Shown here: piece by piece, positions 1-20,100 of the stretch
Position numbering within the stretch: the stretch's first letter is position 1
How the letters are laid out: each line of letters opens with the position of its first letter
Virus record (IMG/VR): IMGVR_UViG_3300003877_000013
Span: 1 to 20,137 of that record
Length of the DNA stretch: 20,137 nt
Origin: a virus
Reading direction: 5' to 3' (one strand)
Program-made: the position numbers and the translations under genes
Notes under the pieces: model-generated
Database searches by the model: none
The model's input: only the letters and a program-made list of their open reading frames with translations
Told to the model about the DNA's origin: nothing

Positions 1-30
1 CTCAATCAAATAGTAATGGACAAGCGGAAA

Positions 31-85
31 GTGCTGGCGCTGGCCCCGTGTGTTGCCAGATCCAAATGCCAGCACCCGCCAGCAC
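31..85. repeat. Three GCCAGCAC boxes, two direct and one inverted
   Basis: GCCAGCACC occurs at 68-76 and again at 78-86. The two copies are offset by exactly 10 bp, so they lie on the same helix face. The inverted copy GTGCTGGC is at 31-38; with its next base it forms a 9-bp inverted repeat (31-39 with 77-85). Spacing by one helical turn suits a protein-binding site (regulator, or terminase recognition at a packaging site), but the short GC-rich words could also be chance. Confidence 0.4.
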
Positions 86-150
86 CGCATGACACCAGCC
101 CTGACAGCCTTCACAAGCCTTTCTACAGCTAACCAGCTACCAATGCCTGC

Positions 151-327
151 CTAAGCGTTAGATATCGCCTCACACGGCTTCTCACGCCATAATTGCCTCG
201 CATCCCACCAGCCTGCAGCGTTGTTATTGAGCAACAACCGCCATTGAACCGGCATTCTGTTCAGCTTCACTGCATACCGAGAACGCAACCCATTGATATC
301 GTTATGTTTCTCTGCTTGATTTAACAT
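151..327 (-). CDS. Doubtful small hypothetical protein (58 aa)
   Basis: An open minus-strand frame of 58 codons from ATG at 327 (a GTG at 333 is an alternative). The product has a basic central part and Trp/Asn-rich text (QWRLLLNNNAAGWWDARQLW), which reads more like a protein than most shadow frames. Against it, there is no Shine-Dalgarno sequence next to either start, and the neighbourhood is otherwise non-coding. It points away from the late cluster, so it could be the last or only gene of a divergent module outside the window. No function is recognised. Confidence 0.33.
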   Translation of the reverse strand: MLNQAEKHNDINGLRSRYAVKLNRMPVQWRLLLNNNAAGWWDARQLWREKPCEAISNA

Positions 328-462
328 AATCACATATTATGCGCACTGCTCACCTGCCCTTGTGTTGCCAGCGTGGCATGGGTACGGGGTCACCCCCACC
401 CCCTTGGGCCGAGGAAGCAGCTGCTAGCACCCACAATATATCCAGCAAAATCCAAACGGATG

Positions 463-471
463 TGCTATATT
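463..471 (+). promoter_or_regulatory. Extended -10 promoter candidate for the late gene cluster
   Basis: TGC-TATATT matches an extended -10 element (TGn plus a hexamer two mismatches from TATAAT). No good -35 hexamer is present 17 bp upstream, which extended -10 promoters tolerate. A transcript would start near 478, about 38 nt before the GTG of the first gene. No other promoter of similar quality was found at the head of the run, so this may drive 516-1975 or the whole cluster. A phage-specific polymerase could use quite different signals. Confidence 0.38.
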
Positions 472-515
472 CACAAAAACGCACACATTAGTTAGAAATC
501 TACGGGGCGGGTATC

Positions 516-725
516 GTGGAATCTGTGAAATATGGTAATTTCGCCACAAAATCGGCTTTTGCGGAGTCGTTGGGGGTTAGTCCTAGCACTGTCAGCAAGT
601 GGAAAGGAGAGCTTCCTGGCTATGCCGAGAGGCATCTTGAGCTGTTGTCTGAGATTGATGAATTGAAGTCGGAGTTGGCCAGTTGGCATAAATTTCGAGA
701 TGTTGTTAAGGGGATTGTTGAATGA
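516..725 (+). CDS. Small helix-turn-helix DNA-binding protein (69 aa); possible small terminase or regulator
   Basis: Residues about 8-31 read as a helix-turn-helix of the Cro/XRE kind: FATKSAFAESLGVSPSTVSKW has the usual small residue-turn-GVSPSTVSKW recognition helix. The remainder is an acidic/hydrophobic helix, possibly for dimerisation. The start is GTG with only a weak purine run (ACGGGGCGGG) upstream; no ATG is available. It is the first gene of the late run, and its stop overlaps the next ATG by 4 nt. Small terminase subunits carry an N-terminal HTH and lie upstream of the large subunit, and no other candidate for that role is seen here. At 69 aa it is short for one, so a transcriptional regulator of the late operon is equally possible. 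Confidence 0.7.
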   Translation: MESVKYGNFATKSAFAESLGVSPSTVSKWKGELPGYAERHLELLSEIDELKSELASWHKFRDVVKGIVE

Positions 726-985
726 CTATCATTAAACTTTCTGAGAAAAAGCCTGTTCCTGATGTTATAGAGTTTATAGAGGGTCTTCTTGAGCAAGCGA
801 AGTCTGGCGATCTTGTTGGTATAGCGATAATTGGAGTAATGTCTGATGGATGTAGTGGTAATGGATGGAATAGCATAGAGGAGAATGTGATGAAAGTTCT
901 AGGAGAGATTAGCGTTCTTCAGCGAGACATAATGGACGTGAATGTCGATCTAAGAATTGACCCTGTTACTGGGGATGGATCATGA
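722..985 (+). CDS. Hypothetical phage protein (87 aa)
   Basis: ATGA overlap with the upstream stop and a Shine-Dalgarno AAGGGG about 8 nt before the ATG make this a well supported gene. It ends in another ATGA overlap with the glycosyltransferase, so the three genes should be translationally coupled. The N-terminal half predicts an amphipathic helix (VIEFIEGLLEQAKSGD) followed by a hydrophobic strand (LVGIAIIGVMSDG). The helix plus strand-plus-DG pattern recurs in small unassigned phage proteins. No catalytic motif, signal or membrane segment is seen. Function unknown. Confidence 0.75.
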   Translation: MTIIKLSEKKPVPDVIEFIEGLLEQAKSGDLVGIAIIGVMSDGCSGNGWNSIEENVMKVLGEISVLQRDIMDVNVDLRIDPVTGDGS

Positions 986-1632
986 GCATTTTAATTTGCA
1001 CGCCATGTTATGGTGGTCAGGCCACTGTCCCCTACATGAGGTCTATTCTATCCCTTCAGGAGTCTCTGCTGGCGTCTGAAGTTCCTCATGACTTCCTGTT
1101 CACGTCTAATGAGTCTCTGATCCAGAGGGCCAGGAATACTTCGGTAGCCACTTTCCTCAAGACTGACTATGAAAGTTTGATGTTTATCGATGCCGATATT
1201 GAGTTTTCCGCTGAGGACGTGGCCAAGCTGTGGAATCTTGATGTGCCTGTTGCTGTAGGCGCTTATTCAATGAAGAGACCTGACAAACCTGTCAGTGCGT
1301 GGAAGGATGGTAGGCTAGTTGATCTTGATGAGTTGAGTGGTCTTACTGAGGTAGATTATGCCGGCACTGGCTTCATGCTGATCAAGCGTCAAGTTTTTGT
1401 CGCAATGCAGGCGCAATATCCTGAGCTAGATCATGAAGAAGGTCATGTAGGAAAATGCCATGGTTGGTTTGATTGTCCGATTATTGATGGTATTCAGTTG
1501 AGTGAGGATTACAGTTTCTGCCGAAAATGGACTAAAATGGGCGGTAAGGTCATTCTTGACCCTTCAATTGAATTGGGCCATTGGGGTTCATACAGATACG
1601 GACATGATCCGTTTGGAGAGAAACATGGGTAA
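982..1632 (+). CDS. GT-A fold glycosyltransferase-like protein (216 aa)
   Basis: The N-terminus ILICTPCYGG is the first beta strand and nucleotide-binding loop typical of GT-A glycosyltransferases. The short hydrophobic strand SLMFIDADIEF contains a DxD metal/nucleotide-sugar motif (D70-A-D72). A second half has SEDYSFC (candidate catalytic acidic pair) and the ELGHWG histidine seen near the metal site in family-2-like enzymes. There is no signal peptide or membrane segment, so it would act in the cytoplasm on a soluble acceptor. Gene order (ATGA overlap upstream, 8-nt overlap with a likely virion surface protein downstream) suggests a structural protein as acceptor, though this is inference. 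Sugar donor and linkage cannot be predicted. Confidence 0.82.
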   Translation: MSILICTPCYGGQATVPYMRSILSLQESLLASEVPHDFLFTSNESLIQRARNTSVATFLKTDYESLMFIDADIEFSAEDVAKLWNLDVPVAVGAYSMKRPDKPVSAWKDGRLVDLDELSGLTEVDYAGTGFMLIKRQVFVAMQAQYPELDHEEGHVGKCHGWFDCPIIDGIQLSEDYSFCRKWTKMGGKVILDPSIELGHWGSYRYGHDPFGEKHG

Positions 1633-1975
1633 TGAAGTTGATTTCAATGCTGTTCAGACTCAGGAGCAGCAGGCAGCCAATATTCTGGCTTTGACTGCTG
1701 ATGGCAACATTAAGGGATTCTTCTATGGGTCTGAGACTCACGACTTCGGTTCGCTGGTCGATGGTGCCGGTGAGACCGGATCTCTTACTGTTGTTGGTGT
1801 TGAGCTTGGAGATGCTGTTATTGGTGTCTCGGCTGGTGTAGATATCGTCGACATGACATTTACTGCCTATGTGTCTGCTGCCAACACTGTTGAGTACCGG
1901 ATGCAGAATGAATCTGGCGCGACGGCCGATCTTGCTTCAACGACTATCCGGGTTATTGTTGCTGACCTGACTTAA
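1625..1975 (+). CDS. Small beta-rich phage protein (116 aa), probable head decoration or fibre type
   Basis: The ATG at 1625 is chosen over the longer open frame because GGAGAG (1615-1620) lies 4 nt upstream. The longer frame would run deep inside the glycosyltransferase. The sequence alternates beta strands and Gly/Asp/Ser turns: FGSLVDGAGETGSLTVVGVE, then FTAYVSAANTVEYRMQNESG, ending LASTTIRVIVADLT. This AYVSAANTV-type beta sandwich recurs in short phage proteins coded near head genes, usually unannotated. A role as capsid-surface decoration is inferred from fold-like pattern and location. It overlaps the glycosyltransferase stop by 8 nt, so the two are co-translated. Rich in Thr/Ser, which could carry O-linked sugar. 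Confidence 0.72.
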   Translation: MGNEVDFNAVQTQEQQAANILALTADGNIKGFFYGSETHDFGSLVDGAGETGSLTVVGVELGDAVIGVSAGVDIVDMTFTAYVSAANTVEYRMQNESGATADLASTTIRVIVADLT

Positions 1976-2087: not shown

Positions 2088-3581
2088 GTGGATGTTGCTG
2101 AAGCTGCAAAAGTAGTAGCTAACTATTATAAATACAACAAGATGAAAATTCATCTTCCATATGGGCATCCTGACACTTTAACAACCGGCATTACATGGAA
2201 GGCAAAGAATGAAGGCGGGGTATGGGCAAAGTGGTCAAATAAGCCATGGCAATTAGACTTCCATAATGCAGGTGCAAATCATCGTGAAAGGATGATCATC
2301 TGCGCTAATCGTGTCGGAAAATCGATTTCAGCGGCATACGAAACATCTCTCCACATGACGGGGAATTATCCTGATTGGTGGGAAGGCAAGAGATTCAGTA
2401 AACCTGTTCTAATCTGGACAGGCTCTCCAACAAATGAAACCTCTCGTGATATCGTGCAGAAAGAACTGCTCGGTGGAATATCGAAGGAAGAACTTGGTAC
2501 AGGTTTTCTTCCGCAGAATATGATTATTGGCCGGCCAAAAATGCGGCAAGCCGGTGTTTCAGATGTTGTAGACACATTCAAAGTACGCCATATCTCTGGA
2601 GGGATCTCCACTTGTGTTCTGAAGACCTATGAACAGGGCTGGAGAAAGTGGCAGGGTACGCAGCCTGACGTTGTCTGGCTTGATGAGGAGCCTGAAGACT
2701 TCAAGATTTACACTGAGGCGCTGACTAGACTGCTTACCTCTAAAGGAATAATGATGGTAACTTTCACCCCTTTGCTTGGGCAGACAGATATCGTCCTTCA
2801 CTTTCAGGATTCAAACTCTTCTCAAGTATGGATGGAAACGGCGACGTGGGACGATGCTCCCCATCTGAACCCTGAAGACAAGGCCTCAATGATCGAATCC
2901 TATCCAGATCATGAGGTTCAGGCGCGAACTCAAGGCGTGCCGATGATGGGTGAGGGTAGAATCTTTACGACAAGTGAAGATGAAATAGCTATCGATCCTA
3001 TAGAGATTCCCAGTCACTGGCCTAGGATTTGCGGAATAGATTTCGGTATTGATCATCCGTTTGGCGCTGGATGGGTTGCTTATGACCGCGACACAGATAC
3101 GATATACGTCTATGATTGTTATAGGAAAAAAGGTGAGCTTCCAACCTACCACTCATCTGCTATTAATTCCAGGGGAGACTGGATACCAGTATCATGGCCA
3201 CATGACGGCGTAAACAGGGACAAGGGATCTGAAGTTGGGCGCAGATTGTTTGAGGTCTATAAGACGCATGGGGTGAACATGCTTAGCCGGTCTGCCAGGT
3301 ACAAGAACGATAAAGGCGGGGCTCAACCTCAATGGCCAATCATTGAGGAGATAAAGGAGAGAGAGAGGACTGGTAGATTCAAGGTCTTCAAGACCTGTTC
3401 GATTTATCTTGAAGAGCGACGAAATTACCATGTTAAGGCAAAAGACGGCAAGATAAAGATCGTTGACCGTAGAGATGACACATTAAAAGCTGTTTTCTAT
3501 GCAATAATGATGAAACGCTTTGCCTCTACACAGACAATTCGGACAAATAGGGCTAAAATGGCCCCTATGATGAGGATGTAA
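2088..3581 (+). CDS. terL: Terminase, large subunit (497 aa)
   Basis: This is the packaging motor ATPase and headful/cos nuclease. Walker A is ANRVGKS at residues 73-79, a form frequent in podovirus terminases. Walker B is DVVWLDEEP with D199 and catalytic E200/E201. The coupling motif TFTPLLG follows at 225-231. The RNase H-like nuclease has GIDFG (D318), a WPHDG segment and a C-terminal RRDDTLKAVF (D463/D464), giving the three acidic clusters expected. The N-terminus HLTG/YP..WW-type segment after Walker A (HMTGNYPDWWEG) is also typical. Start is GTG at 2088 with a weak AGAG upstream; the next in-frame ATG (2142) has no better site. A 112-nt gap precedes it. Length is normal for the family and all key residues are present. 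Confidence 0.95.
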   Translation: MDVAEAAKVVANYYKYNKMKIHLPYGHPDTLTTGITWKAKNEGGVWAKWSNKPWQLDFHNAGANHRERMIICANRVGKSISAAYETSLHMTGNYPDWWEGKRFSKPVLIWTGSPTNETSRDIVQKELLGGISKEELGTGFLPQNMIIGRPKMRQAGVSDVVDTFKVRHISGGISTCVLKTYEQGWRKWQGTQPDVVWLDEEPEDFKIYTEALTRLLTSKGIMMVTFTPLLGQTDIVLHFQDSNSSQVWMETATWDDAPHLNPEDKASMIESYPDHEVQARTQGVPMMGEGRIFTTSEDEIAIDPIEIPSHWPRICGIDFGIDHPFGAGWVAYDRDTDTIYVYDCYRKKGELPTYHSSAINSRGDWIPVSWPHDGVNRDKGSEVGRRLFEVYKTHGVNMLSRSARYKNDKGGAQPQWPIIEEIKERERTGRFKVFKTCSIYLEERRNYHVKAKDGKIKIVDRRDDTLKAVFYAIMMKRFASTQTIRTNRAKMAPMMRM

Positions 3582-3582
3582 T

Positions 3583-3921
3583 ATGGATTGGCCTGAATTC
3601 GAGCGGTTTTGCCAGATCAAGGGTCTAAGGCCGGTAAGAAAGGTTGATGACCCAGAAGCGATCATTGGGATTGCTGAAACAGATTGGGAGAATGATCGTC
3701 CTGGTGAATATCCTCTAGGATATTACCAGACTGCTTATGCAGTCGGCGGGCGTAATAGTAAAGGAAAGGTGGATTTCGCCGTCTGGATTGAGTTCGACGC
3801 GCTGCATGACAAGGATGAAGGCTGGACACAAGAAGCAAAGCGTCAAGCAAGAATCAACAAGACATTGAAAGAAGCCAGAACTCTTATAGAGAAATGTGAA
3901 TATGGCAAGACGCATAACTAG
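3583..3921 (+). CDS. Hypothetical protein between terminase and portal (112 aa)
   Basis: Starts one base after the terminase stop with GAGGA at 3572-3576, 6 nt before the ATG, and overlaps the portal start by about 20 nt, so it is firmly part of the operon. The protein is soluble and charged. Its N-terminus (MDWPEFERFCQIKGLRP) looks helical, a central part has strand-like YYQTAYAVGG and DFAVWIEFDAL, and the C-terminus is a Lys/Arg/Glu-rich helix. No motif is recognised. Position suggests a packaging or portal-associated accessory role, but there is no direct evidence. Confidence 0.78.
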   Translation: MDWPEFERFCQIKGLRPVRKVDDPEAIIGIAETDWENDRPGEYPLGYYQTAYAVGGRNSKGKVDFAVWIEFDALHDKDEGWTQEAKRQARINKTLKEARTLIEKCEYGKTHN

Positions 3922-5710
3922 CGATGACTGGAATCACATTTCGTCGTTCATAACAGATGAACTAAAGCGGAGACGTGATCGCAGGAAAGATTTAGACAAG
4001 GCAATCAAGACAATTGATCGTCAGATTGCGATGACTCCAGATATATCTTATAAGCTGGATGCCGATGGCCGTCCTGATATTAACAAGGCATGGATGCCTG
4101 AAACTGAACTCCCTCTGCAAGCCCAGACACTCGAAGTCCTGACGGCAGATGCTCGCAGGCTATTGTCTCCTGATTCAGGCCCTTGGTTCCAGGCTCACGC
4201 CAATGTGACTGACAGTTATCTTGATAGTATTGATCTGACTTCGATGATTTCAGGGGACGAGAATGATGTACCGAGCACGATAAATCAGGATAATGTCGAT
4301 AAGTTGGTAGCCGGTACGCTGGATCATTTTCATTCAAAATATGATTTCTGGGGGAACCTCGACAAGATTAATGCTGAAGCCTTTGCTTATGGAACGGGCA
4401 TAGGTCGAGGGCGAATGGTGAAGCAGACCATTGTTGATCGTGATGGTAAGGCTTCAGAGAAGATGATCCCAGTTCTTGTCCCAAGGAGCCTTAAAAATAC
4501 CTATCTGGATGATAGCCCGGCGGCGGTAATGAATGAGGGAATTTTCATCAATCCTGGAACAATTGAATGTAAATATTACCGACTAAAAGATATTCAGCTT
4601 TCTTCCAGAAAGGGGAATAAAGACCCAAGGAACATGGGTGGAGGCTGGATTCCTTCAAATCTTCAAGGCATTGAAGGTGATAATTCAGGAAACATTCAAG
4701 TTATTGAATATGAAGGTGATTTGGTCGTTCCAAGGAAAACAGGACGACCATTATTCCTTCCGAATGTCCTCATTACCGTTATTGAAGGTAAGAAAGGCAA
4801 AGAGCCAGCGCATAGGGTAATCAGATATAGAGAAAACCCATACGGGTGTACTTATATCGAATTCCCGTATCATTGCGAGAATATTGAATCACCTTATGCA
4901 ACTTCACCTCTAATGAAGGGGATGCCGATTCAGATAGCCGCTGTTGAGGCACTAAATCGCATGTTAATGGCTGCTGCAATTAACACACAGCCACCACTAA
5001 CTTATGATGCTGATGATCCTTATTTTGCCAAAAATGGTGGCCCAAGTTTATATCCTGGGGCATCGATCCCGACAACAGGAGACGTTGATCCTATAATTGT
5101 TGGAGATGCAGGCGCATTATTCTCAATCTATATGGGGCTTCTACAGCAGTATAATGATGTTACTGGAGTAAATGCCCCGCGACTTGGGGCGCAAACTGTC
5201 TCACATACTACTGCTTTTGCAAAGCAGGCAGAGTTATCAAGAGGAACTGTAAGAACGGTAGATTACGTCAAATCTGTATTGAAGAATCCGCTGAAGAGAT
5301 GGCTGGAGATGGAATATAGAATGGGGCGTGATACACTACAATCCACTGATATCTTTATAGAAAGTTATGGAGCATTCGTTACTGTTTCAAAAGAAACATT
5401 GCCAGAAAATGTTTTCTTTATTGCTCATGGCTCTGGCGGGCCTTCAGAAGAAGAAGCAATTAGAAGCGCCAGAATGTCGTCGCTGCAACTTGCTTTGCAG
5501 ATTGATCAGATCAATACTCAATATCAAGCGCAAGGCATTAAACCTTCAATCGATATGGAAGCAGCGATGGAGCAGACTCTGAGAGAGGGGAAATGGACAG
5601 ATGTTGATATTATCCTCAAACGACAAGATGCTGTTGAGGGAGTTACAGCGGAACCCGCAATGGGCCAGCTTCCTGGAATCATTACGCAGGGACCGGAAGG
5701 TGCGCTATAG
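3902..5710 (+). CDS. Portal (head-to-tail connector) protein (602 aa)
   Basis: This protein would form the dodecameric ring through which DNA enters and leaves. It is assigned from size, position directly after terminase and before scaffold and capsid, and sequence character. The N-terminal helix is Arg/Lys-rich (ELKRRRDRRKDLDKAI). An acidic/aromatic region around MPETELPLQAQTLEVL and DARRLLSPDSGPWF is typical of podovirus portals. A Gly/Pro-rich wing region (GNKDPRNMGGGWIPS) and a long C-terminal helical part with Gln-rich text follow. GAGA at 3889-3892 lies 9 nt before ATG 3902; a GTG at 3896 would give two more residues but a poorer spacing. Its last 110 nt are shared with the next gene in another frame. 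Confidence 0.88.
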   Translation: MARRITSDDWNHISSFITDELKRRRDRRKDLDKAIKTIDRQIAMTPDISYKLDADGRPDINKAWMPETELPLQAQTLEVLTADARRLLSPDSGPWFQAHANVTDSYLDSIDLTSMISGDENDVPSTINQDNVDKLVAGTLDHFHSKYDFWGNLDKINAEAFAYGTGIGRGRMVKQTIVDRDGKASEKMIPVLVPRSLKNTYLDDSPAAVMNEGIFINPGTIECKYYRLKDIQLSSRKGNKDPRNMGGGWIPSNLQGIEGDNSGNIQVIEYEGDLVVPRKTGRPLFLPNVLITVIEGKKGKEPAHRVIRYRENPYGCTYIEFPYHCENIESPYATSPLMKGMPIQIAAVEALNRMLMAAAINTQPPLTYDADDPYFAKNGGPSLYPGASIPTTGDVDPIIVGDAGALFSIYMGLLQQYNDVTGVNAPRLGAQTVSHTTAFAKQAELSRGTVRTVDYVKSVLKNPLKRWLEMEYRMGRDTLQSTDIFIESYGAFVTVSKETLPENVFFIAHGSGGPSEEEAIRSARMSSLQLALQIDQINTQYQAQGIKPSIDMEAAMEQTLREGKWTDVDIILKRQDAVEGVTAEPAMGQLPGIITQGPEGAL

Positions 5711-6374: not shown

Positions 6375-7448
6375 ATGGCTTTAACTGTCTCTGATACCAC
6401 GAACCTTACCAAGCCGGTAAACGTGATATTTCAACAGACCCTTCTGCGGAACGCCAAGGTTCGTGCCCCATATTTTATTGGCACGATGCCTGGCGAACTT
6501 CAGAAGAATCGAGGATCTGCAACGGTAAGTTGGCGGCGGATTGAAAACCTCACTCCGTCCACTACAGCCATTGCAGAGTTGACTGGTACTGCATCGTATA
6601 TGCAGGGCCGTAGTTCTGCTGCATTGTCGGTAACTGACTACACTGCGACTGTCTCCAAGTATGGCAATTTTGTCATTCTTAATGAAGAAGCTGAGTTGTT
6701 CAACTTCAATGGACAGATGGACAAGATCATGGAAGTTATCGGCATTAATGCTGGTCAGTCTGTGAATCGTCTCCAGCGTGATATTGCTGAAGACAATCTG
6801 ACGCTTGTCTATGCAGGTGGAGCAGCTAATGATGCGGCTGTTAGCTCGAAGATCACCAAGTCTTCAATTCGTAGTGTCCTCAATACTCTGGATAAAAACA
6901 GCGCTACGACCTTCATGCCGATGACCAATGGAAGCTCGAATGTCGGTACTACGCCGATTCTTCCTGCTTTTTGGGGACTGACCCATCCTGATGTTGCTGT
7001 TGATATCACTGATTTGGCTGGTTTCAAGAGTGTTGAAACCTACGCTGGACAGACTGCAACAGCGCCAGGTGAGTTCGGCACGTTGACTGTCGCAGGAAAG
7101 GGCGTAAGGTTCATTTCCAGTGAAGATGCGAGCGTTGATGCTGATTCTGGCGTTAGTATCGGCTCTACTGGTTTGAACGGTACTACTAACGTCGATCTAT
7201 ACACCACTGTGATCTATGGTCGTGATTGTCTCGGTTCTGTCGGATTCGGTGAATCGTATGGTGACGGCATCTTTACTGCTGGTGATGAGCTTGGCCCTGT
7301 CGAACTCATCGTCAAGGGTTTGGGTTCTGGTGGTACTTCCGATCCTTACAATGAAATCTCTACGATTGCATGGAAGGCTTGGCATACTGGCCAGCTCCTC
7401 AATGCTAACTGGGGTCGTGGCATCCGCTCTGGTGCAACGAGTCTGTAA
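6375..7448 (+). CDS. Major capsid protein, N4-gp56-like (357 aa)
   Basis: AAGGAG at 6363-6368 is 6 nt before the ATG. The text matches the N4-gp56 family of HK97-fold capsid proteins: an early strand GSATVSWRRIENLTPSTTAI followed by ELTG (family form: strand, RR.E.L...T.pL.EG), then TVSKYGNFVILNEEAEL (family form: QYG.y..vsd), and a later WGLTHPDVAVDI loop. The central part is helical (INAGQSVNRLQRDIAEDN). The C-terminus ISTIAWKAWHTGQLLN resembles the family's final strand/helix. No membrane or signal sequence. It lies between scaffold and connector genes and is followed by a strong hairpin, which could help set its high expression. Confidence 0.9.
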   Translation: MALTVSDTTNLTKPVNVIFQQTLLRNAKVRAPYFIGTMPGELQKNRGSATVSWRRIENLTPSTTAIAELTGTASYMQGRSSAALSVTDYTATVSKYGNFVILNEEAELFNFNGQMDKIMEVIGINAGQSVNRLQRDIAEDNLTLVYAGGAANDAAVSSKITKSSIRSVLNTLDKNSATTFMPMTNGSSNVGTTPILPAFWGLTHPDVAVDITDLAGFKSVETYAGQTATAPGEFGTLTVAGKGVRFISSEDASVDADSGVSIGSTGLNGTTNVDLYTTVIYGRDCLGSVGFGESYGDGIFTAGDELGPVELIVKGLGSGGTSDPYNEISTIAWKAWHTGQLLNANWGRGIRSGATSL

Positions 7449-8743: not shown

Positions 8744-10310
8744 CTTTAACACGGTACTGGAATTCGGCGGAGGCGTTCATTCAAGGGCATCTGAAAGCGA
8801 CATTGATCCCAAGGAATGCACTTCTGGCGAGAATTTTGACCTTGATCCTCAGAATAGAGACTTCAAGAACCGACAACCATTTGATTTAATCGGCACAGTC
8901 CCGAATGGGCTTGAGATCAGAGGGTTTGCCAATTTACAGAAAAGTGATGGCTCTATTTCACTTTTAGTACAGGCAGGAGGAACAGTATATGAGTGGGATG
9001 GATCTTCCACTTTCACTTCAGTAGGAACTGTAGTCCCTACAGCAAAACTGAGAGGCAAGCTTGAACATAATTGGCAGCTAGACGATAAAGTAATCATCAC
9101 CGATCTTAATCTCCAGCAGCCAGTAATGGAATGGGATGGAACTACTCTGCAAAACGTCAGCTTCACTACTGAAGATGGCTCTACACCTTTCGGTACTTTC
9201 AAAGCAAGATATTGTGCTGTAAGTGAGGAGCGGGTAATTTTTGCCAACGTTAATGATAATGGCACAGACACTCCTCATCTTATTGTCGGCTCGCAACGTG
9301 GGTCTTACACGATCATCACGGTTGCAAACCGTCCATCATCGGCATTGAGCGAAGAAGATCCTTTCTACTTAATACAGCCAGACTATCGCTACATAAATGG
9401 AATGACGCAGGGGTTCCATCAGCTTATCACATCATCAAAAAGCGGAAGTTTGTTCAACCTTAGCGGTTCATCGGCAAAGGACTTCGCATTTAATGAGTTC
9501 TTCGCACGCTCAGGCGCTTCTGGAGACGAATCAGTAACAAACGTAGGTAATGATATTACTTACGGGAGAAATGGTCGTCTTGAGTCTGTGATTGCCACTG
9601 ACAAGTTTGGTGACGTTGATGGCAATGACTTATCAAGTGATATCTACAACCTTGTTGAGAATTACAAGGAATGGACAGTTGTTTACAACCAGCGCAATCA
9701 GAGGATCTATTGTTTGCCCACTGGCGAATCACAGATATGGGTTTATCACAAACCGCTAGTTGGTTCTAATCTTTCACCGTGGTCTAAGTGGACGACAGTC
9801 CATTCTTCAGCTTTTAACCCTACAGTAATCATGAATATGCTCGACCCGGCTGATGGGCTTGAGTATGTATATTTCGGTGATTCAAATGGTAATTTTTACC
9901 GCCTTGAGGGGCAGACAAATGAGGGTGACGGTGGTGCCAATAATGTAAAAGCTAAACGACGCTCTGGCCTTATCCAGGCCCCGTCTGACTTGATGGTGAA
10001 CAATATTGAAGGGTGGATCAAGTACAGATCAGGCGATTCGGCTACTGTCACCATTACAATATATTATCGTGGAATGAACGTCTATAATGAGACAATAACC
10101 GTAAGTATTCCGGTAGTTACGAACAGGAAGGTGTATGGTGGTGGAAGCTATTACAACTCAGGAGAAGGATACGGATCATTCTCGGGGCGGCTCTACCGTC
10201 AAATTATCGGGATCGCAGGACAAAGTAACGAATTCCAAGTCGAAATCGAAGTCGACGGTAAAACGAACTTCCAAATCTCGGAAATCGGCCTCAACTTCAA
10301 GGGTTCCTAG
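8736..10310 (+). CDS. Tail nozzle / tail tubular B-like protein (524 aa)
   Basis: The N-terminus MADFNTVLEFGGGVHSRASE has the small-residue-rich opening usual for nozzle proteins (a variant of the ..F.GGv...). It is followed by repeated Trp/Gly beta-blade segments (VYEWDGSSTFTSVG, VMEWDGTTLQNVS, WTVVYNQRNQRIYCLP, YVYFGDSNGNFYRLEG), consistent with a beta-propeller nozzle such as T7 gp12 or P22 gp10. It would form the hexameric tip of the short tail and plug the channel. It overlaps the connector stop by 8 nt. Its final 176 nt overlap, in another frame, the leader of the next gene and have an odd repetitive AAGTCGAAATCG-type composition. Confidence 0.85.
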   Translation: MADFNTVLEFGGGVHSRASESDIDPKECTSGENFDLDPQNRDFKNRQPFDLIGTVPNGLEIRGFANLQKSDGSISLLVQAGGTVYEWDGSSTFTSVGTVVPTAKLRGKLEHNWQLDDKVIITDLNLQQPVMEWDGTTLQNVSFTTEDGSTPFGTFKARYCAVSEERVIFANVNDNGTDTPHLIVGSQRGSYTIITVANRPSSALSEEDPFYLIQPDYRYINGMTQGFHQLITSSKSGSLFNLSGSSAKDFAFNEFFARSGASGDESVTNVGNDITYGRNGRLESVIATDKFGDVDGNDLSSDIYNLVENYKEWTVVYNQRNQRIYCLPTGESQIWVYHKPLVGSNLSPWSKWTTVHSSAFNPTVIMNMLDPADGLEYVYFGDSNGNFYRLEGQTNEGDGGANNVKAKRRSGLIQAPSDLMVNNIEGWIKYRSGDSATVTITIYYRGMNVYNETITVSIPVVTNRKVYGGGSYYNSGEGYGSFSGRLYRQIIGIAGQSNEFQVEIEVDGKTNFQISEIGLNFKGS

Positions 10311-10779
10311 GCTTTCACGGACTCTTGGAAGGAAAGTCAGTTATCGGGATATGATTGAAGATGATATCAAGTATCTATGGGCTGCAAAGAGAATAATGGC
10401 AGATGATATCATTGACCCGAAAGAGTTTGCTGATTCGGTCATTGAAGAGATTGATCTTCGTTATGATGATGCATGGATTATTGAGGCAACGACGAAAAAA
10501 GGATTCAGGCCAATCGGAGTCATATTTGGACTTTATGCGGGGCCAATTGAGATAATTGGCGACATAATGTGGTTCCCATGGGCGTCTAAACGTAACGTTA
10601 TTGAAGGCATTGTTAAATTCTTCAATGAAGAACGGAAGAACAAGCTATTGGTTGGCTGGTGTAATCAGAAAGACAAGAACTTGTTTGTGCATGTAGCCAG
10701 ACATGGAATATTGAAGCGAATTGGAACACTTGATGGCATTTATGAAAATGAGCCTGCTGCTATGTTCCAATCGAGGTGA
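10135..10779 (+). CDS. T7 gp13-like GNAT-fold virion protein with Ser/Lys-rich leader (214 aa)
   Basis: From about residue 67 the text follows a GNAT fold: beta strand KVSYRDM, helix DIKYLWAAK, strands FRPIGVIFGLYAG and IIGDIMWFPWAS, helix NVIEGIVKFF, strand LLVGWC, and the ending FVHVARHGILKRIGTLDG. The terminal HxxRxxGLxxIG layout resembles T7 gp13, and the gene lies in the same slot before three internal proteins. No clear CoA loop (Q/RxxGxG/A) is seen, so catalysis is doubtful. The start is ATG 10135 with AGGAAGG (10125-10131) upstream, which makes residues 1-58 overlap the nozzle gene and be Ser/Lys/Arg-rich. ATG 10351 is the only later ATG, but it would remove the first beta strand and has a poor ribosome site. 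Confidence 0.72.
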   Translation: MVVEAITTQEKDTDHSRGGSTVKLSGSQDKVTNSKSKSKSTVKRTSKSRKSASTSRVPRLSRTLGRKVSYRDMIEDDIKYLWAAKRIMADDIIDPKEFADSVIEEIDLRYDDAWIIEATTKKGFRPIGVIFGLYAGPIEIIGDIMWFPWASKRNVIEGIVKFFNEERKNKLLVGWCNQKDKNLFVHVARHGILKRIGTLDGIYENEPAAMFQSR

Positions 10780-12705: not shown

Positions 12706-14804
12706 TGTCTTTTACCGATGACCTACTGTTGTCTAAAAAGCAGGAAAAGCCTGCGAAGAAGCCTGCTGAGAATTTCACAGAAGAGCTTTTAGCTTCTCCT
12801 GCGCCTGCCGAAATAACGCAGCCTCAACCTGTCATTGCGAGTGGTCAGAGCGGATTTCCTGCCCCTTCTCAGGAAGGAATTACCAAGGAATTCATTACTG
12901 ATCCTCAGCAGGTAGAGGCTGGCAAGTTTATGTCTTTTGCGAAAGGCGTAAATGAGACATTCCAAGGGTTTCACCAACTTCTTACTCGTGCCGGCGAACA
13001 GCTTGGATTGATGGATAAAGGATCTCTTGAAGAATTCAACAAGATGACCAAGCAAGACCGTAAGGCGTTCAACGAATCATTCAGAAAGGAATTCGGCGAT
13101 GAAGCCGCGTTCACTATTGCTGAAGTTCTCGGGAGGTTAGCTCCTGCTCTTGCTGTCCCTGCCGGAGCAGGATTGCCAGGTGCTGTTGGTACTGGTGCAT
13201 TATTTGGTGCAGCAGAATTTACTGAGGATAACTTTGGACAGAATGTTGCAATTGGAGCTGCTACTGGTGCATTAGGGCCTATTATCAATGCAGTACCTGC
13301 CTTCAGGAAATTCCTTCGTAATCAGATAGGGGTCTCAAAGAAAGGCCGCCAGATAATCAAAGCGATTGATGACTTTCCTGATAAGGCAGATGATGAAATC
13401 GCAAAGCTGATTGGGGCCGACAAAGCACTAATTAAGCAAGCTAGATTCGCCAAGGAAGGTCTTGATCTTATCAATGATACAGGCGTTGACCTAAAGCTGT
13501 CACAGATCACTGGAGATGTACGCCAGGAATGGCTTGAGAGAGTAGCAAGGGATAGTGAGATTGGGGAACGACTTGGCAGGGAGATAGAAACAAAGCAAAT
13601 TGTCCAGTCATACAAGCTCTGGAAGCGTACTGCTGCAAAACTATTCCCTAAGTCGAAAATACTGCGTAGGGCAGCAGATCCAAATTCAGTCAGGTTCGGT
13701 GAACAGGTAAATAAAGCATTCCACTCAATTCTTGGTGATGTTAAGAAAGGTACTGGGTTGCTTGGCAAACGTGCGGTTACAGCCAAGAAAGACTTTGCCA
13801 TAATTGACAAAGTTACAGGGAATAAGCCAATTATTGAGCTTAACAACTTCAGGAACACCATTACCGATCTTATTGCTGAGAATTCAGGCCGTGCTGCCGG
13901 TAGTCAGCAGTTAAGGCTTGCTAAAGAGCTTACAGGTCTACTTGAGAGGTTTGATGAAATTCCTCTTGCTACCGGGAAAGAAATGCAGCTATTGCTTCAT
14001 AATTATGGTCGTGCGGCTAAAGGCAAGACACAGATATTCAAATCATTACAGGAAAGCTTTGATAAGCGTCCTTACAGAATGCTGTATGGCGCTATCGCAA
14101 AGGATCTTGATGATGCCGCAGAAGGAGGTACTGAGATAGCACAGCTTCTCGCTAATGCTCGTAATAACTATGCCATGAACACTGCATTGATTGATGAGAT
14201 TTCAGAATCAAGCATTGGGGCATTATTTGGTGCTACGAAGAAACCTACTATCGACGCAATAGAAGACTCATTCTTCAGGATGAAGCCAGCGGCTATTAAG
14301 GAGACGATGCAGGTTTTGGCAAAAGCAGATCCTACCTTACAACGCCAATTACAGAGATTCTGGCTTGAGCGATGGATGCTTGGTGCCACAAAGACAGCCA
14401 GTAAGGATGTGTTCCCATTCGTAGCAGGAAAAATGGCTGAACTTAGAACAGATCCTGCATTCAAGGCTGTGTTCAATGATGCAGAGTCTCAGAAGCTGGT
14501 AAAAAAAGGAATTGATGTAGCAAGGCGTATTGTAATGAATAACCAGCGTACAGGCGGTAAAACCGTTTCCAGGCTTAAAGAATTCGCAGGTGTACTTGCT
14601 TCTCGTGATCCGACTTTCGTCGCCAGGCTTGGAAGTGAAATATTCACCCCAAAGCTAATTTCAAAAGCATTACTTGATCCTGAAGGAATCAAGGCATTGG
14701 ATGCTTTAACGAAACCATATAATCAAAATATGGCAGCGGCTATATTGACCACGTTGAACAATATAGCAAGAGAGGATGACGATAATGTCGAACCCGTACA
14801 GTAA
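12705..14804 (+). CDS. Large internal virion (ejection) protein, gp16-like position (699 aa)
   Basis: The largest gene in the window and last of three internal-protein genes. Residues 1-35 carry two copies of a short motif (FTDDLLL at 3-9 and FTEELLA at 24-30) in a Pro/Lys/Glu-rich tail, which may be a docking peptide. Residues about 140-200 are a Gly/Ala-rich hydrophobic stretch (LGRLAPALAVPAGAGLPGAV to GAATGALGPIINAVPAF) suited to membrane insertion. The rest is charged and helical with basic patches. No lytic transglycosylase (ES...G..Q) or lysozyme motif was found, unlike T7 gp16, which is 1318 aa. It probably forms the trans-envelope DNA channel. Ribosome site modest (AAAGAAGAG upstream). 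Confidence 0.72.
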   Translation: MSFTDDLLLSKKQEKPAKKPAENFTEELLASPAPAEITQPQPVIASGQSGFPAPSQEGITKEFITDPQQVEAGKFMSFAKGVNETFQGFHQLLTRAGEQLGLMDKGSLEEFNKMTKQDRKAFNESFRKEFGDEAAFTIAEVLGRLAPALAVPAGAGLPGAVGTGALFGAAEFTEDNFGQNVAIGAATGALGPIINAVPAFRKFLRNQIGVSKKGRQIIKAIDDFPDKADDEIAKLIGADKALIKQARFAKEGLDLINDTGVDLKLSQITGDVRQEWLERVARDSEIGERLGREIETKQIVQSYKLWKRTAAKLFPKSKILRRAADPNSVRFGEQVNKAFHSILGDVKKGTGLLGKRAVTAKKDFAIIDKVTGNKPIIELNNFRNTITDLIAENSGRAAGSQQLRLAKELTGLLERFDEIPLATGKEMQLLLHNYGRAAKGKTQIFKSLQESFDKRPYRMLYGAIAKDLDDAAEGGTEIAQLLANARNNYAMNTALIDEISESSIGALFGATKKPTIDAIEDSFFRMKPAAIKETMQVLAKADPTLQRQLQRFWLERWMLGATKTASKDVFPFVAGKMAELRTDPAFKAVFNDAESQKLVKKGIDVARRIVMNNQRTGGKTVSRLKEFAGVLASRDPTFVARLGSEIFTPKLISKALLDPEGIKALDALTKPYNQNMAAAILTTLNNIAREDDDNVEPVQ

Positions 14805-15816
14805 GCCGTCAATATCTGGCTACAATTCTAATCCTCCGCCTGATGATGGAACTTCCATTGCTCAGAATGAGATCACATGGGCAAAGCATAAGGACAAACT
14901 TGGTGATCCTGTAAAGAATTACGCAGACGCCATAAATACCGCTACGTTTAATGCCTTTGCTGATATTTTCTTGAATTCTGTTTCAAGTCATTCTGCAAAT
15001 TACACGGTTTTAACATCAGATCAAGGTGCATTATTAGATTGCCAGAATACGATCACAATCACACTGCTATCTGCTTCATCCGCAGGTACTGGATTTCCAT
15101 TAGCTATCAGGAATGCAGGATCTGGAATTATTACCGTAGATGGAAGTGGCGCAGAGACTGTGAATGGATCTGCCACGATTAATTTAGATCCGGGCGGATG
15201 GATTATTATCACATCGGACGGTAGCAACTGGAGTGGACCGCAAGGCGTTACTAAAGCATCTCAGGCAGAAGTAACAGCAGGAACTGAAGATAGCAAGTTT
15301 GTTACTCCGTTAACACTTAAAGGAATTAAAGCCTCACAGGCAGATGTAGATGCTGGGACTGATACAAAGAAATATATCACTTCTCAGACTCTAGCTGCTG
15401 GGAATATACTGAGACCTTATTCAGCAGTTATTGATGCAGGCAGAGTATCGGATATTTCCAGCTGTTTTAATCAAGATGCAACTTATGGCAGTATTTATAT
15501 TGATGAAGTAAGTAGTAAATTGGTAATAAAGATTGATCTTTACCACCCATATAATGACCAATCTATTGGGTATACAAGAACAGCAGGATCTTCATTAACG
15601 CTGTATGAGGGAATCTATACCGTTCTTCTGCCTGCCGGAATGGTATTAGAGCATTATTTGAATGGCGCTTGGTATACAGATGCCGTATTCGATGGGAGCG
15701 CGCAAAAAGCAGGAACATTCACTGCAATAATAGATTCTCCACATGCCTCAAGATTGAGAAACACTACAGGTGGAACTCTCACTTATTATATGATGATGGC
15801 ACAACTGTATGGATAG
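14785..15816 (+). CDS. Tail fibre / receptor-binding protein (343 aa)
   Basis: ATG 14785 is preferred: AGAGAGGA lies just upstream at a good spacing, and the resulting N-terminus MSNPYSKPSISGYNSNPPPD aligns with that of the tailspike gene; ATG 14776 has no room for a ribosome site. Layout: virion-anchor domain (about 7-51, PPPDDGT, ITWAKHK, KLGDP); beta domain (68-153, TSDGSNW); two repeats of the ASQA-V-AGT---K--T--TL type (157-180 and 182-205), a known tail-fibre motif; and a beta-rich C-terminal tip (208-343). It overlaps the large internal protein by 20 nt. No chaperone gene is seen. Confidence 0.86.
   Translation: MSNPYSKPSISGYNSNPPPDDGTSIAQNEITWAKHKDKLGDPVKNYADAINTATFNAFADIFLNSVSSHSANYTVLTSDQGALLDCQNTITITLLSASSAGTGFPLAIRNAGSGIITVDGSGAETVNGSATINLDPGGWIIITSDGSNWSGPQGVTKASQAEVTAGTEDSKFVTPLTLKGIKASQADVDAGTDTKKYITSQTLAAGNILRPYSAVIDAGRVSDISSCFNQDATYGSIYIDEVSSKLVIKIDLYHPYNDQSIGYTRTAGSSLTLYEGIYTVLLPAGMVLEHYLNGAWYTDAVFDGSAQKAGTFTAIIDSPHASRLRNTTGGTLTYYMMMAQLYG
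14833..14849 (+). repeat. 17-bp direct repeat, first copy (anchor of tail fibre)
   Basis: CCTCCGCCTGATGATGG occurs here and again at 16128-16144, both inside the conserved N-terminal anchor codons (PPPDDG). It is a product of anchor duplication or exchange and could serve as a homologous crossover point between the two receptor-binding genes. Confidence 0.7.
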
Positions 15817-15825
15817 GATATTTTC

Positions 15826-16086
15826 ATGAATGATCTTATTCTTGGCATTGCAGTTCTCATCGGTGGAGCAGCCGCGCACGATGATGGTTACATAGATGTT
15901 GGCCTTGCCATGCACTCAAACGCATATGATGGCCCAGAAGTCAGGCTTAGCAATCCATTAGGTACTGTGGAAGCCGGTATTCAGAGTGGACGATATAAGG
16001 TGTACTTCGAGCACATTAGTGGACTTAGTACGGTTGAAGAAGGTGCTGGCTTGAATATGATAGGAATTAAGGTAAGGATCAAGTAA
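15826..16086 (+). CDS. Small protein with hydrophobic N-terminus between the two receptor-binding genes (86 aa)
   Basis: AGGA at 15815-15818 is 7 nt before the ATG, and the stop overlaps the tailspike ATG by 1 nt, so it is translated with its neighbours. The N-terminus (LILGIAVLIGGAAAHDD) could be a signal peptide with an AAA cleavage site, but it lacks a positive charge. The rest looks like beta strands (YIDVGLAMHSNAYDGPEVRL, RYKVYFEHISGL, GLNMIGIKVRIK), an alternating pattern seen in small outer-membrane or barrel-type proteins. No lipobox. Possible jobs are receptor masking (superinfection exclusion), or a minor structural or chaperone role. The function is not established. Confidence 0.68.
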   Translation: MNDLILGIAVLIGGAAAHDDGYIDVGLAMHSNAYDGPEVRLSNPLGTVEAGIQSGRYKVYFEHISGLSTVEEGAGLNMIGIKVRIK

Positions 16087-17882
16087 TGAGTTACACAAAA
16101 CCATCATTATCAGGATACAACGCAAGCCCTCCGCCTGATGATGGGACGACTGGAAGTAATAATGAAATCACTTGGTCTAAACATAAGACGAAGCTTGGTG
16201 ATCCATTACAGACATTCAGTAATGCGATAAATGATGCCGTAGAGGCTGCATGGTCAGATGCAGATTGGCCTCTAAAATCATCAGCAACATACGCAAGCGC
16301 AACCACCTTCACAGTCCCTGACGTTACCAGCTTCCACAATGGCCGCCGCGTAAAGACATCAGAAGACGCCTATGGCGTAATCACTAACGTTTCTGGCACC
16401 ACCATCACGGTAGAGCTATCAAGCGGCTCACTGACAGCCTCGCTGGCCTCTGTGCAGCTTGGGCCTGCTGCTGTGAATCCTGCAATAGATGCGCGTGGTA
16501 TTGTGCATCAAGATAAAATCTATTCAACAGAATATTTACAGACAACATCTGATATAGCAAATGGAGCCCCCTTATCTATATTACGGTTTATAGCACCAAG
16601 TGATCATACAAAAATAAGGGGGAGAATATCAACAACAGATCATTCACTTGCATTAAACAATGCGATTACTGAACTCAACGCTATTGGTGGAGGGAAAATT
16701 AATTTACCTCCAGGTGATTATAATTGTGAAGATGTTATACCAAAAACTGGCGTTACGCTTTCTGGTGAAATTGTAGGGTCTATGAGTGGTGGCCTGTCTA
16801 CTGGAGCCAGATTTGTTTCTCTTGGCAATGGTAGTCACATAATTAACCAAGCATCTGGTGCAGTGTATAACTTTGCTATAGATGGAATGATGTTTCAAGG
16901 CCCAGGATCTTCTATTGTAGGTCGCGGAGTTTATGGATTAGCATTACATAGGTTTAATCTAACCAATTGTGCTTTTAACAATTTTGCAGGTGAAGCTGCT
17001 AAGGTGGATGCTGGGACTGCTGCCATATACCAAAATCTGTTTGCTCAAAACTGTATTCTTGATAGAACGCAAACAGGGAAAATTGGTGTATTAGACATAA
17101 CTGCTAATGATAACTGGTTTGGCATCATGGAAATAACAACTAGCCAAGGTGGAACAGCAAATAAATCTGATGCAAATTTATATCTATGCGCCATCAAAAT
17201 ATCAGGGGCTAATCACTTTGTAAATGGAATTATCGGCGAAATTGCAGATATTGGAATCTATGTAGATTGTAGCGACTCTAGGTTTGTAAATTGTAGAGCT
17301 GATCTTAATCAAGGACATGGCTGGCAGCTCGTTAATGCCACTAGTAACAGGTTTACGAACTGTTCAGGAACAAGAAATTCACAAGATGCAAATGACACCT
17401 ATAACCAGTGGGATATAGATTCTTCTTCTAGATCAAATAGATTTGTAAATTGCAATGGTGACGGCCTCGGCTCTGATACAAATAAGGCCAAATATGGGTT
17501 TAACGATGCTGTGAATTCAGATTCTGGTAAGAACTATTACGATGACTGTAGTGGTAGCTTAAATGTTACTGCACCATTTAATACAGTAGATTACGCAGGA
17601 TCGTCTGTAAGATTCCACGAGGGCCCACCTAAAACATTCGCTTTAGCAGATGCAACGCCTAGTGTTGAACAGTATTCATTTTTCAGGACTGGGGGTGCTG
17701 ATACTTATACAAATTTTGATGATGGAATCTCAGGTCAGAGAATAAAAATCTTAGCAAGCCATGCTGCTACAATAAATAATACTGCTACAATAAAAACAAA
17801 CACAGGAGCAAGCAAGCTATTAACCGTTAATGCAATATATTCTTTCAAAAATTGGAACGGTGTGTGGTATGAATATTCGTAG
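16086..17882 (+). CDS. Tailspike with beta-helix, probable polysaccharide depolymerase (598 aa)
   Basis: AAGGA at 16074-16078 is 7 nt before the ATG. The N-terminal anchor (about 3-50; PSLSGYNASPPPDDGT, NNEITWSKHKTKLGDP) is homologous to that of the upstream fibre. Residues about 70-126 form a short beta module of higher G+C than its surroundings. From about 185 the text is a right-handed beta-helix: entry cap GGGKINLPPGDYNCED, then many N-rich strand/turn repeats (FNLTNCAFNNFAG, FVNCRADLNQGHGW, RFTNCSGTRNS, RFVNCNGDG). The C-terminus (FALADATPSVEQYSFF to WNGVWYEYS) is a common spike end domain. Catalytic Asp/Glu residues cannot be assigned by eye. Confidence 0.87.
   Translation: MSYTKPSLSGYNASPPPDDGTTGSNNEITWSKHKTKLGDPLQTFSNAINDAVEAAWSDADWPLKSSATYASATTFTVPDVTSFHNGRRVKTSEDAYGVITNVSGTTITVELSSGSLTASLASVQLGPAAVNPAIDARGIVHQDKIYSTEYLQTTSDIANGAPLSILRFIAPSDHTKIRGRISTTDHSLALNNAITELNAIGGGKINLPPGDYNCEDVIPKTGVTLSGEIVGSMSGGLSTGARFVSLGNGSHIINQASGAVYNFAIDGMMFQGPGSSIVGRGVYGLALHRFNLTNCAFNNFAGEAAKVDAGTAAIYQNLFAQNCILDRTQTGKIGVLDITANDNWFGIMEITTSQGGTANKSDANLYLCAIKISGANHFVNGIIGEIADIGIYVDCSDSRFVNCRADLNQGHGWQLVNATSNRFTNCSGTRNSQDANDTYNQWDIDSSSRSNRFVNCNGDGLGSDTNKAKYGFNDAVNSDSGKNYYDDCSGSLNVTAPFNTVDYAGSSVRFHEGPPKTFALADATPSVEQYSFFRTGGADTYTNFDDGISGQRIKILASHAATINNTATIKTNTGASKLLTVNAIYSFKNWNGVWYEYS
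16128..16144 (+). repeat. 17-bp direct repeat, second copy (anchor of tailspike)
   Basis: Identical to 14833-14849 over 17 bases while flanking bases differ, although the encoded proteins remain alike (SGYN, PPPDDGT, EITW, KHK, KLGDP). A crossover between the copies would delete the tail fibre body and the 86-aa gene and leave one intact spike. Confidence 0.7.
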
Positions 17883-17918: not shown

Positions 17919-18221
17919 ATGAAACAAAAACAACCAGCCACAGAGCATCTACAGAGATGGCTATTATTTGCATCCACGCTGATCCTCGGGGCGCTGACGT
18001 ACCAGAGCCAGCAGATGACCGGAGTGCTGGTGGAGATCCGTGGAATCACGAAAGACGTTGCAGCTAATGCTCGCCAGATCCAGGAGCTGCAGCAGTGGCG
18101 CTACTCACAGCCGTTCAGGAAACCGACGGTCATAGAGGTGCCTAAAGTTGCGCTGCCGCTCGACATGCGTCGGCGGCTCCACATTGAGGGGCCATATCCA
18201 GGCTCAGATGCGAGGTTTTGA
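17919..18221 (+). CDS. Small single-membrane-span protein of the lysis cassette (100 aa)
   Basis: The N-terminus is basic/polar, followed by one hydrophobic segment (WLLFASTLILGALTY, about 14-28) and a long hydrophilic tail with a helical Gln/Ala-rich part (VAANARQIQELQQWR) and a Pro/Val-rich end. This is a signal-anchor (N-in) topology, as in i-spanins (Rz) or some holin-like proteins, but no overlapping Rz1 lipoprotein frame with a lipobox was found. There is no Shine-Dalgarno before the ATG, which follows a 36-nt gap after the tailspike. It begins the GC-richer lysis block. Identity uncertain; spanin-like or antiholin-like are the two main options. Confidence 0.62.
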   Translation: MKQKQPATEHLQRWLLFASTLILGALTYQSQQMTGVLVEIRGITKDVAANARQIQELQQWRYSQPFRKPTVIEVPKVALPLDMRRRLHIEGPYPGSDARF

Positions 18222-18222
18222 T

Positions 18223-18705
18223 ATGATGGACGCCAAGCAATTCAGAGAACAAATTGTCCGGCCAACGCTCGAATATCTTGAGCCGGAAATTCCATACACC
18301 CGCGCCGCCGAAGATCTGATTGTTGGCACCGCGATGCAGGAATCCAACCTAACCTATGTCCGCCAGCTCGACGATGGCCCAGCCCTGGGCCTGCTGCAGA
18401 TGGAGCCTGCGACGTACTCAGATATCCACAGCAACTACCTATCCTACCGCCCAGACCTCGACCAGAAAGTTCGGCGACTCGCCGCCCAGCGCTGGCACGG
18501 CCCTGTTCCTGCCGACGAGATGATCGCCAACGTGCCCTACGCCGTAGCCATGGCACGGGTGCATTACCGGCGTGTGAGCGAACCACTCCCGCCGGCGCAC
18601 AACGCCGCCGAACTAGGCAGGTACTGGAAGCTGCACTACAACACCAAGCTTGGCAAAGGCACGATCGGTGAGTTTATGAAGAACTATGCGAGGGCAGGAT
18701 CATGA
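18223..18705 (+). CDS. Endolysin, transglycosylase-like muramidase (160 aa)
   Basis: The ATG at 18223 is chosen since GAGG (18212-18215) is 7 nt upstream; the longer open frame runs into the previous gene. GTAMQESNL (E40, likely catalytic Glu in a QES triad) is followed by GPALGLLQMEPATYSDI (52-68), the ES...G..Q architecture of the lysozyme/transglycosylase superfamily. The C-terminal part has RVHYRR, YWKLHYNTKLGKGT and a terminal helix, as in a small phage cell-wall hydrolase family. No signal peptide, so export would need the holin. The stop overlaps the next gene's ATG by 4 nt. Confidence 0.8.
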   Translation: MMDAKQFREQIVRPTLEYLEPEIPYTRAAEDLIVGTAMQESNLTYVRQLDDGPALGLLQMEPATYSDIHSNYLSYRPDLDQKVRRLAAQRWHGPVPADEMIANVPYAVAMARVHYRRVSEPLPPAHNAAELGRYWKLHYNTKLGKGTIGEFMKNYARAGS

Positions 18706-18863
18706 ACGGATATACACCGCTATCAGATCTGATTGAATCATGGACAAAAGACACGAGGAAACGCCTCGCGCTGACCCGAGCGAAACGTGACCTCAGGTTG
18801 CCGACCAACCGCGTCGTGTATAGAAAACGGCGTAAATCTATACATGATTTGGTGAAGCCATGA
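18702..18863 (+). CDS. Small basic protein in the lysis cassette (53 aa)
   Basis: This gene was found by reading the gap between endolysin and holin. It starts with an ATGA overlap on the endolysin stop and ends with an ATGA overlap on the holin start, which strongly supports it. The product begins MNGYTPLSDLIESWTKD and is very rich in Arg/Lys, with a basic cluster near the C-terminus (RVVYRKRRKS). No membrane segment or lipobox. It could be a lysis regulator or a nucleic-acid-binding peptide; no homologue is recognised. Confidence 0.7.
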   Translation: MNGYTPLSDLIESWTKDTRKRLALTRAKRDLRLPTNRVVYRKRRKSIHDLVKP

Positions 18864-19429: not shown

Positions 19430-19441
19430 CGATCAAGTATT

Positions 19442-19657
19442 TCAGTCAGTCTTACTTGTGCCATTGTGGTAGTCACAATGCTTCTCATTTTTGTAGTGGT
19501 TATATGCAACAATTACATCCGCCAGCTTTTTCCCATCTTTGAATTTCCGCCATACCAAATTCATTACCCAGGCGGTGAAAACAGACATGCCAATCAAAAC
19601 AAAAAATCCAGCGCAGATAACGCCTACCCAATAAAAAACTGTTTCGTAACCGCTCAT
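19442..19657 (-). CDS. Small membrane protein on the opposite strand (71 aa)
   Basis: GGAG lies 6 nt before the ATG on the minus strand, a good ribosome site. The N-terminal half is one long hydrophobic span (TVFYWVGVICAGFFVLIGMS and on to about residue 34), followed by a basic/aromatic cytosolic tail (VWRKFKDGKKLADVIVAYNH). N-terminal-out or N-in topology cannot be told. It converges on the holin gene with only 12 nt between the stops. Function unknown; small phage membrane proteins at this position can be early or superinfection-exclusion genes, but nothing in the sequence decides. Confidence 0.7.
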   Translation of the reverse strand: MSGYETVFYWVGVICAGFFVLIGMSVFTAWVMNLVWRKFKDGKKLADVIVAYNHYKNEKHCDYHNGTSKTD

Positions 19658-19756
19658 TTTATGCTCCAGTTGTTAGCATGATTCGCTATGGCAGAATGGG
19701 TAGTTGGTAAATGCAAGTCCTAATTCGGCACCCCTTTGGTTGTACCATCAACAGCA

Positions 19757-19891: not shown

Positions 19892-19912
19892 GTTGTCACC
19901 TAGCTTCTCCTG

Positions 19913-20092: not shown

Positions 20093-20100
20093 TATTCACC

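Follow-up and report, generated by a model that had tools for sequence, protein, structure and literature searches.

What is the target of a glycosyltransferase whose gene overlaps, in a phage genome, the gene of a small β-sandwich protein and lies among the DNA-packaging genes? The question is raised by a virus record of 20,137 bases (IMGVR_UViG_3300003877_000013), which was analysed at its full length and is referred to here as the window. In it, a phage-encoded glycosyltransferase (GT) adjoins, by overlap, the gene of a candidate virion protein, P1. The original prediction was that the two genes may form a virion-glycosylation module, with the small protein or the capsid as the acceptor. 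The gene order of the window is podovirus-like, with TerL, portal/head-tail adaptor, a scaffold-like gene, the major capsid protein, tail genes, fibres and lysis genes following one another. The features relevant to the argument are:

516..725, + strand: HTH protein of 69 aa, which starts the short run leading to GT; weak HTH matches (P22_Cro, E 8.5e-5; phrog_4779)
722..985, + strand: protein of 87 aa, function unknown, with a 4-nt overlap with the GT start (phrog_796, E 4e-4)
982..1632, + strand: gene of the GT-A glycosyltransferase (GT), 216 aa, phrog_1574 family, related to STIV A197
1189..1197, + strand: codons of the DxD motif (D70, A71, D72), with D70 and D72 invariant in 21 homologues
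1363..1374, + strand: G-loop GTGF, residues 128-131, invariant in 21 homologues
1501..1509, + strand: xED motif S174-E175-D176, candidate catalytic base, with E and D invariant in 21 homologues
1579..1581, + strand: C-terminal His H200, candidate metal ligand, invariant in 21 homologues
1615..1620, + strand: GGAGAG, ribosome-binding-like site of the P1 gene, within the GT gene and 4 bases before the P1 start
1625..1975, + strand: P1, β-sandwich protein of 116 aa with a tailspike LEC-like fold, from a putative decoration-type virion protein family
2088..3581, + strand: terminase large subunit (TerL), right border of the island described below (Terminase_6N, E 8e-18; Terminase_6C, E 4e-14)
3896-5710: portal/head-tail adaptor (phrog_332)
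6375..7448, + strand: major capsid protein, candidate alternative acceptor (phrog_1357, E 4.6e-40)

Both reading frames of the original prediction, 982-1632 (216 aa) and 1625-1975 (116 aa), exist as claimed, and they share 8 nt (1625-1632). A GTG-initiated ORF of 157 aa (1502-1975) was considered for the small gene and rejected, as the GT gene covers the stretch that encodes residues 1-41; it is further disfavoured by the relatives L003, L008 and L024, which start at or near the equivalent of position 1625. The placement of the pair in front of the packaging genes has to be corrected. A second contig of the same virus (L001/L087) reaches further left and reveals a TerS gene upstream (L087:4483-4965), just beyond the left end of the window, whose position 1 lies near L087:5144; because of this gene the GT-P1 pair stands between TerS and TerL. 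Between the off-window TerS and the 69-aa HTH gene, about 500 bases (window 1-515) are devoid of a rightward gene; a promoter and terminator scan of this stretch gave nothing better than shuffled sequence, and no tRNA was found in it. Elsewhere in the window, two fibre-like genes (14776-15816 and 16086-17882), separated by a gene for an 86-aa protein, share the N-terminal anchor KPSxSGYNxxPPPDDGT...NEITWxKHKxKLGDP and diverge after it, which resembles the duplication of a tail-fibre anchor whose ends can be swapped. The tail region encodes a 214-aa protein (10135-10779) that has no PHROG match and whose C-terminal half reads like a GNAT-type acetyltransferase, and near 18 kb the G+C content increases from 0.39 to 0.57, across the lysis genes (18000-20137). 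A TerL search of bacterial genome contigs returned four MAG contigs only, and no host was found.

GT is a full-length match to the phrog_1574 profile (residues 2-206 of 216, E 1.2e-35), with no usable Pfam match for either GT or P1. In the motif alignment A1, which comprises 21 homologues from other viral contigs, D70, D72, G128-T129-G130-F131, E175, D176 and H200 are invariant; all four GT-A motifs (DxD, G-loop, xED and C-terminal His) are conserved, including the DxD pair to which the original prediction had pointed. The AlphaFold2 model has a GT-A fold (pLDDT 89.4, pTM 0.87). A profile search of solved structures retrieved A197 of the archaeal virus STIV (PDB 2c0n, E 7.9e-7), and VIA structural re-ranking placed the same structure first (Z 19.5, 2.5 Å, 170 residues), while the first Foldseek ranking did not have A197 in its top 50. 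The next best matches are the glycosyltransferase domains of LH3, mimivirus R699, Mnn9 and COLGALT1, and many GT-A chains score above Z 12 against the model. No membrane or hydrophobic segment was detected in GT (maximum Kyte-Doolittle value 0.83), nor a membrane segment in the products of the two genes upstream of it; Gtr-type serotype conversion involves a membrane GT with a flippase. As judged from motifs and model, and as originally proposed, GT is an intact-looking soluble GT-A enzyme without membrane signals, belonging to a viral family of which A197 is the nearest solved member, and sugar transfer is its predicted activity. In L001 (IMGVR_UViG_3300003876_000009) two bases corresponding to window 1486-1487 are missing from an otherwise identical stretch, such that GT is frameshifted before the xED motif; this is either an assembly error or a broken variant.

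The P1 model is an all-β sandwich with one N-terminal helix (pLDDT 88.7), in line with the β-sandwich originally proposed; its Kyte-Doolittle value reaches 1.62, but it is modelled as β strands. The Thr/Ser richness ascribed to P1, on the other hand, carries no weight, its S+T content of 16.4% being below the 20.2% of the major capsid protein and the 19-21% of the tail fibres in the same phage. A PDB sequence-profile search with P1 gave nothing meaningful. By structure, residues 31-116 align best with the C-terminal domain of KP32gp38, a depolymerase of a Klebsiella phage (Z 9.6-9.8 over 85-86 residues), and weaker fold matches (Z 6-7) were obtained for the phi297, LKA1 and AP22 tailspikes and the R1-pyocin foot (Z 6.8). 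The matched residues of KP32gp38, 488-577, would correspond to its last, lectin-like LEC domain, with the boundary placed by position; this domain drives trimerization in KP32gp38 (PMC13082707). P1 shares the β-sandwich fold with these proteins but, instead of forming the end of a tailspike, is a separate chain of 116 aa that has an N-terminal helix.

A viral-contig search with P1 alone found only its own virus. Some sequence relatives are the C-terminal parts of tailspike-like proteins, with 41.5% identity in the case of HSE2; many others are stand-alone proteins about 90-120 aa long. The unrelated phages L085 and L086 have the stand-alone gene behind a major capsid gene of phrog_1328 and phrog_267, respectively, and L182 is another case of this order. 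With L085, L086 and L008 as seeds, a scan retrieved at least 473 relatives, and 80 of them were retained. The upstream ORF could be assessed for 37 stand-alone copies and is a major capsid gene in 29 of them (L085 type, 13; L086 type, 13; capsid family of the window, 3), at a distance of 10-82 nt in 27 of the 29; the seeds L085 and L086 favour capsid-adjacent relatives, yet three capsid families are represented. This position behind major capsid genes makes head decoration a likely role of the family, and we infer the same role for P1 itself, which is likely to be a surface virion protein on the strength of its sequence relatives. Like the head decoration proteins of tailed phages, P1 is small, non-enzymatic and β-rich. 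Its gene in the window differs in its location: it stands between the terminase genes, and the capsid gene follows only about 4.4 kb later (1625 versus 6375). A P1-like domain, at about residues 57-140, also occurs in a further family of 370-386 aa (L225:1353-2480 and some 30 comparable loci), which is matched by phrog_36974 at its N-terminus only.

To place the pair in its genomic context, relatives were gathered in two independent ways, by GT (80 loci) and by TerL (80 loci), the window and most of the relatives being incomplete records. Among the TerL loci assessable with at least 2.5 kb upstream, GT is present in 26 of 43, another sugar-type gene in 25 and either of them in 32. Within 6 kb upstream of TerL there are 31 matches to GT, 37 to a sialyltransferase-like family, 34 to a GT8-like family and 34 to other sugar-type families. 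The 6 kb downstream of TerL, 374 kb in all, gave no match to any of them; for the partner families, with profiles derived from the upstream region, this zero is in part circular, and less so for GT. The sialyltransferase-like family (about 200 aa) resembles CST sialyltransferases over a short stretch (E 8e-4), and the GT8-like family corresponds to phrog_1962 with glycogenin/Gat1 matches (E 5e-7). The island also holds a hexapeptide acyltransferase (Hexapep), Methyltransf_24 and FkbM methyltransferases and sulfotransferase-like proteins, of which the c10 family was named from sequence, without a database match. When 16 island records were searched over their entire length, the GT profile matched every one, in most cases at a single site. 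The TerS-TerL gap of relatives carries, in addition, large fibre- or spike-like proteins and small proteins without database match. L128 and L129 have the layout of the window with a different small protein, in the order sulfotransferase-like gene, GT, a protein of 134-135 aa and TerL; such unmatched proteins, small or medium in size, stand beside GT or TerL in the position of P1 at L128:9567-9974, L129:9579-9983, L131:8719-9333 and L155:9624-9920, and another small protein adjoins GT at L021:5687-6001. In L108 (4936-6018) and L109 (4766-5815) the gap holds a cytosine DNA methyltransferase-like gene together with a sialyltransferase-like gene, and GT is replaced. The GT-P1 arrangement is more than chance, as many relatives have GT in the TerS-TerL gap and homologues of both proteins are conserved.

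The pairing itself is much looser. P1 is present in 4 of the 26 assessable GT loci of the TerL set and lacking in the other 22; conversely, GT accompanies P1 in 4 of 5 assessable P1 loci versus 26 of 43 overall, counts too small for statistics. Direct adjacency is seen in the window and L008 only, whereas other genes separate the two in L003, L024 and L111. These five distinct viruses have a readable gap and a P1 that is N-terminally extended by a 'T-x-DG-x-IKG'-type segment, and GT is present in all five. The shorter form of P1 (L098 and L101) is accompanied by other sugar genes but by no GT in the available 2.5-3.7 kb (0 of 2, small numbers). For P1 relatives in other phages, the GT profile found no match in 12 of 12 records, and further searches added no N-terminally extended relatives. 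The co-occurrence in relatives on which the original prediction had staked the module is thus seen in part only: from the P1 relatives without GT and the GT loci without P1, the association is one at the level of the island, and not strictly a fixed enzyme-substrate pair.

What, then, does the enzyme modify? Virion glycosylation offers the best explanation for GT and P1, and we would give it about an even chance of being correct. It is favoured by the GT motifs, by A197 as the best structure, by the lack of a membrane segment, by the island and by the capsid-following P1 family, as well as by the presence of GT in all five assessable viruses with extended P1 and the lack of a hydroxymethylase discussed below. 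Against it stand the independent occurrence of the two genes and their rare adjacency, the homologues in Caulobacter phage Cr30, which lie among replication genes and not virion genes, the incompleteness of the records and the two-base deletion in L001. Of the module as first conceived, the soluble enzyme and a likely surface virion protein are supported, a glycan island in relatives is added, and a specific, conserved pairing is not supported. Late in infection, GT would take a host-made nucleotide sugar and transfer the sugar, in the cytoplasm and before or during assembly, to a protein exposed on the particle, be it P1 or a different virion protein; in relatives, the GT8-like, sialyltransferase-like, sulfotransferase-like, methyl- and acyltransferase enzymes would extend or cap it. 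P1, probably oligomeric, would be a head decoration that either carries the sugar or binds host glycans. That P1 is the specific acceptor of GT is the least certain step, and we consider it doubtful.

Precedents for such a process come from two sides. In STIV, the capsid protein B345 is glycosylated, and A197, which is essential for the virus, is thought to glycosylate its capsid protein, its substrates being unknown (PMC10551542). Both A197 and GT are minimal single-domain viral GT-A enzymes (21% identity, Z 19.5, 170 of 216 residues); STIV differs in being an archaeal virus with another capsid type, no tail and no terminase-gap island. In the mycobacteriophages Che8, Corndog and Myrna, phage-encoded GTs act on virion proteins, and the glycosylation shields the particles from antibodies (PMC12363180, PMC11256854). 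The likeness lies in a phage-encoded GT with a virion protein as target, which for the window is a proposal. There, the sugar itself has been shown, and the gene lies elsewhere, near the right genome end in the F1 phage Maravista; a tblastn search with GT gave no mycobacteriophage among its named matches. In the literature searched, virion glycosylation of tailed phages is reported for a few mycobacteriophages.

The main rival to virion glycosylation is modification of the host surface, which we regard as the less likely of the two. GT, with its partner enzymes in relatives, would alter a glycan of the host envelope or its cytoplasmic precursor, either hiding the receptor from later phages or keeping released particles off debris, and P1 would be an unrelated adhesin or decoration gene in the same island. 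Sialyl-, sulfo-, methyl- and acyltransferase-like enzymes are indeed typical of surface-glycan tailoring, the large fibre- or spike-like genes in several relatives give the island the look of a host-interaction locus, and the independent occurrence of GT and P1 fits as well. However, no membrane or polyprenyl-linked partner is found near the window genes, the enzymes sit with late packaging genes, so that any remodelling would come late, and the closest solved relative, A197, comes from a virus with a glycosylated capsid.

Less probable again, and in our view improbable, is an accidental contact between the two genes, in which P1 would be a lectin-like protein for capsid decoration or adhesion that binds host glycans, while GT acts on some other host or viral protein. 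Phage heads with glycan-binding domains are known (PMC13033339), and the fold match of P1 to the lectin-like C-terminal domain of a tailspike and to the R-pyocin foot, as well as its distribution independent of GT, would agree with this. On the other hand, the presence of GT with the extended but not the short form of P1, small as these numbers are, and the 8-nt overlap, which suggests coupled translation, argue for a closer relation.

Phage GTs that glycosylate DNA bases are known from the T-even phages. Transfer of sugar to a modified base is nevertheless very improbable here: GT homologues do occur in large T4-like phages (tblastn), but a search of 15 records, none known to be complete and the larger ones mostly of 36-47 kb, gave no hydroxymethylase or thymidylate-synthase-type gene (PF00303), in agreement with the lack of base-modification genes originally noted, and the top structures include the protein glycosyltransferases LH3, COLGALT1 and GalNAc-T rather than DNA glucosyltransferases.

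Returning to virion glycosylation, the analysis points to phages that may put sugar on their own particles. A wider reading, which we put forward tentatively and with less confidence than virion glycosylation as such, is that an environmental podovirus-like clade keeps a variable glycan island between TerS and TerL, with an A197-like GT joined in many members by sialyltransferase-like, GT8-like, sulfotransferase-like and methyl/acyltransferase enzymes, and builds a diversified, multi-step glycan on its own decoration or fibre proteins. No paper on a glycan island in this position, nor on such a multi-enzyme set there, was found in the literature searched; provided that the target is the virion, the location and the enzyme set would be new, phage virion glycosylation as such being known. 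If this is true, virion glycans would be common in environmental phages, by way of a modular and exchangeable set of enzymes, and the variable sugar coat of the virion would be encoded beside the packaging genes. The island would then offer a testable system for a multi-step glycan made by a phage without membranes. For the P1 family, the results provide a likely location on the particle, as head decoration with a lectin-like fold, for at least 473 unannotated small phage relatives.
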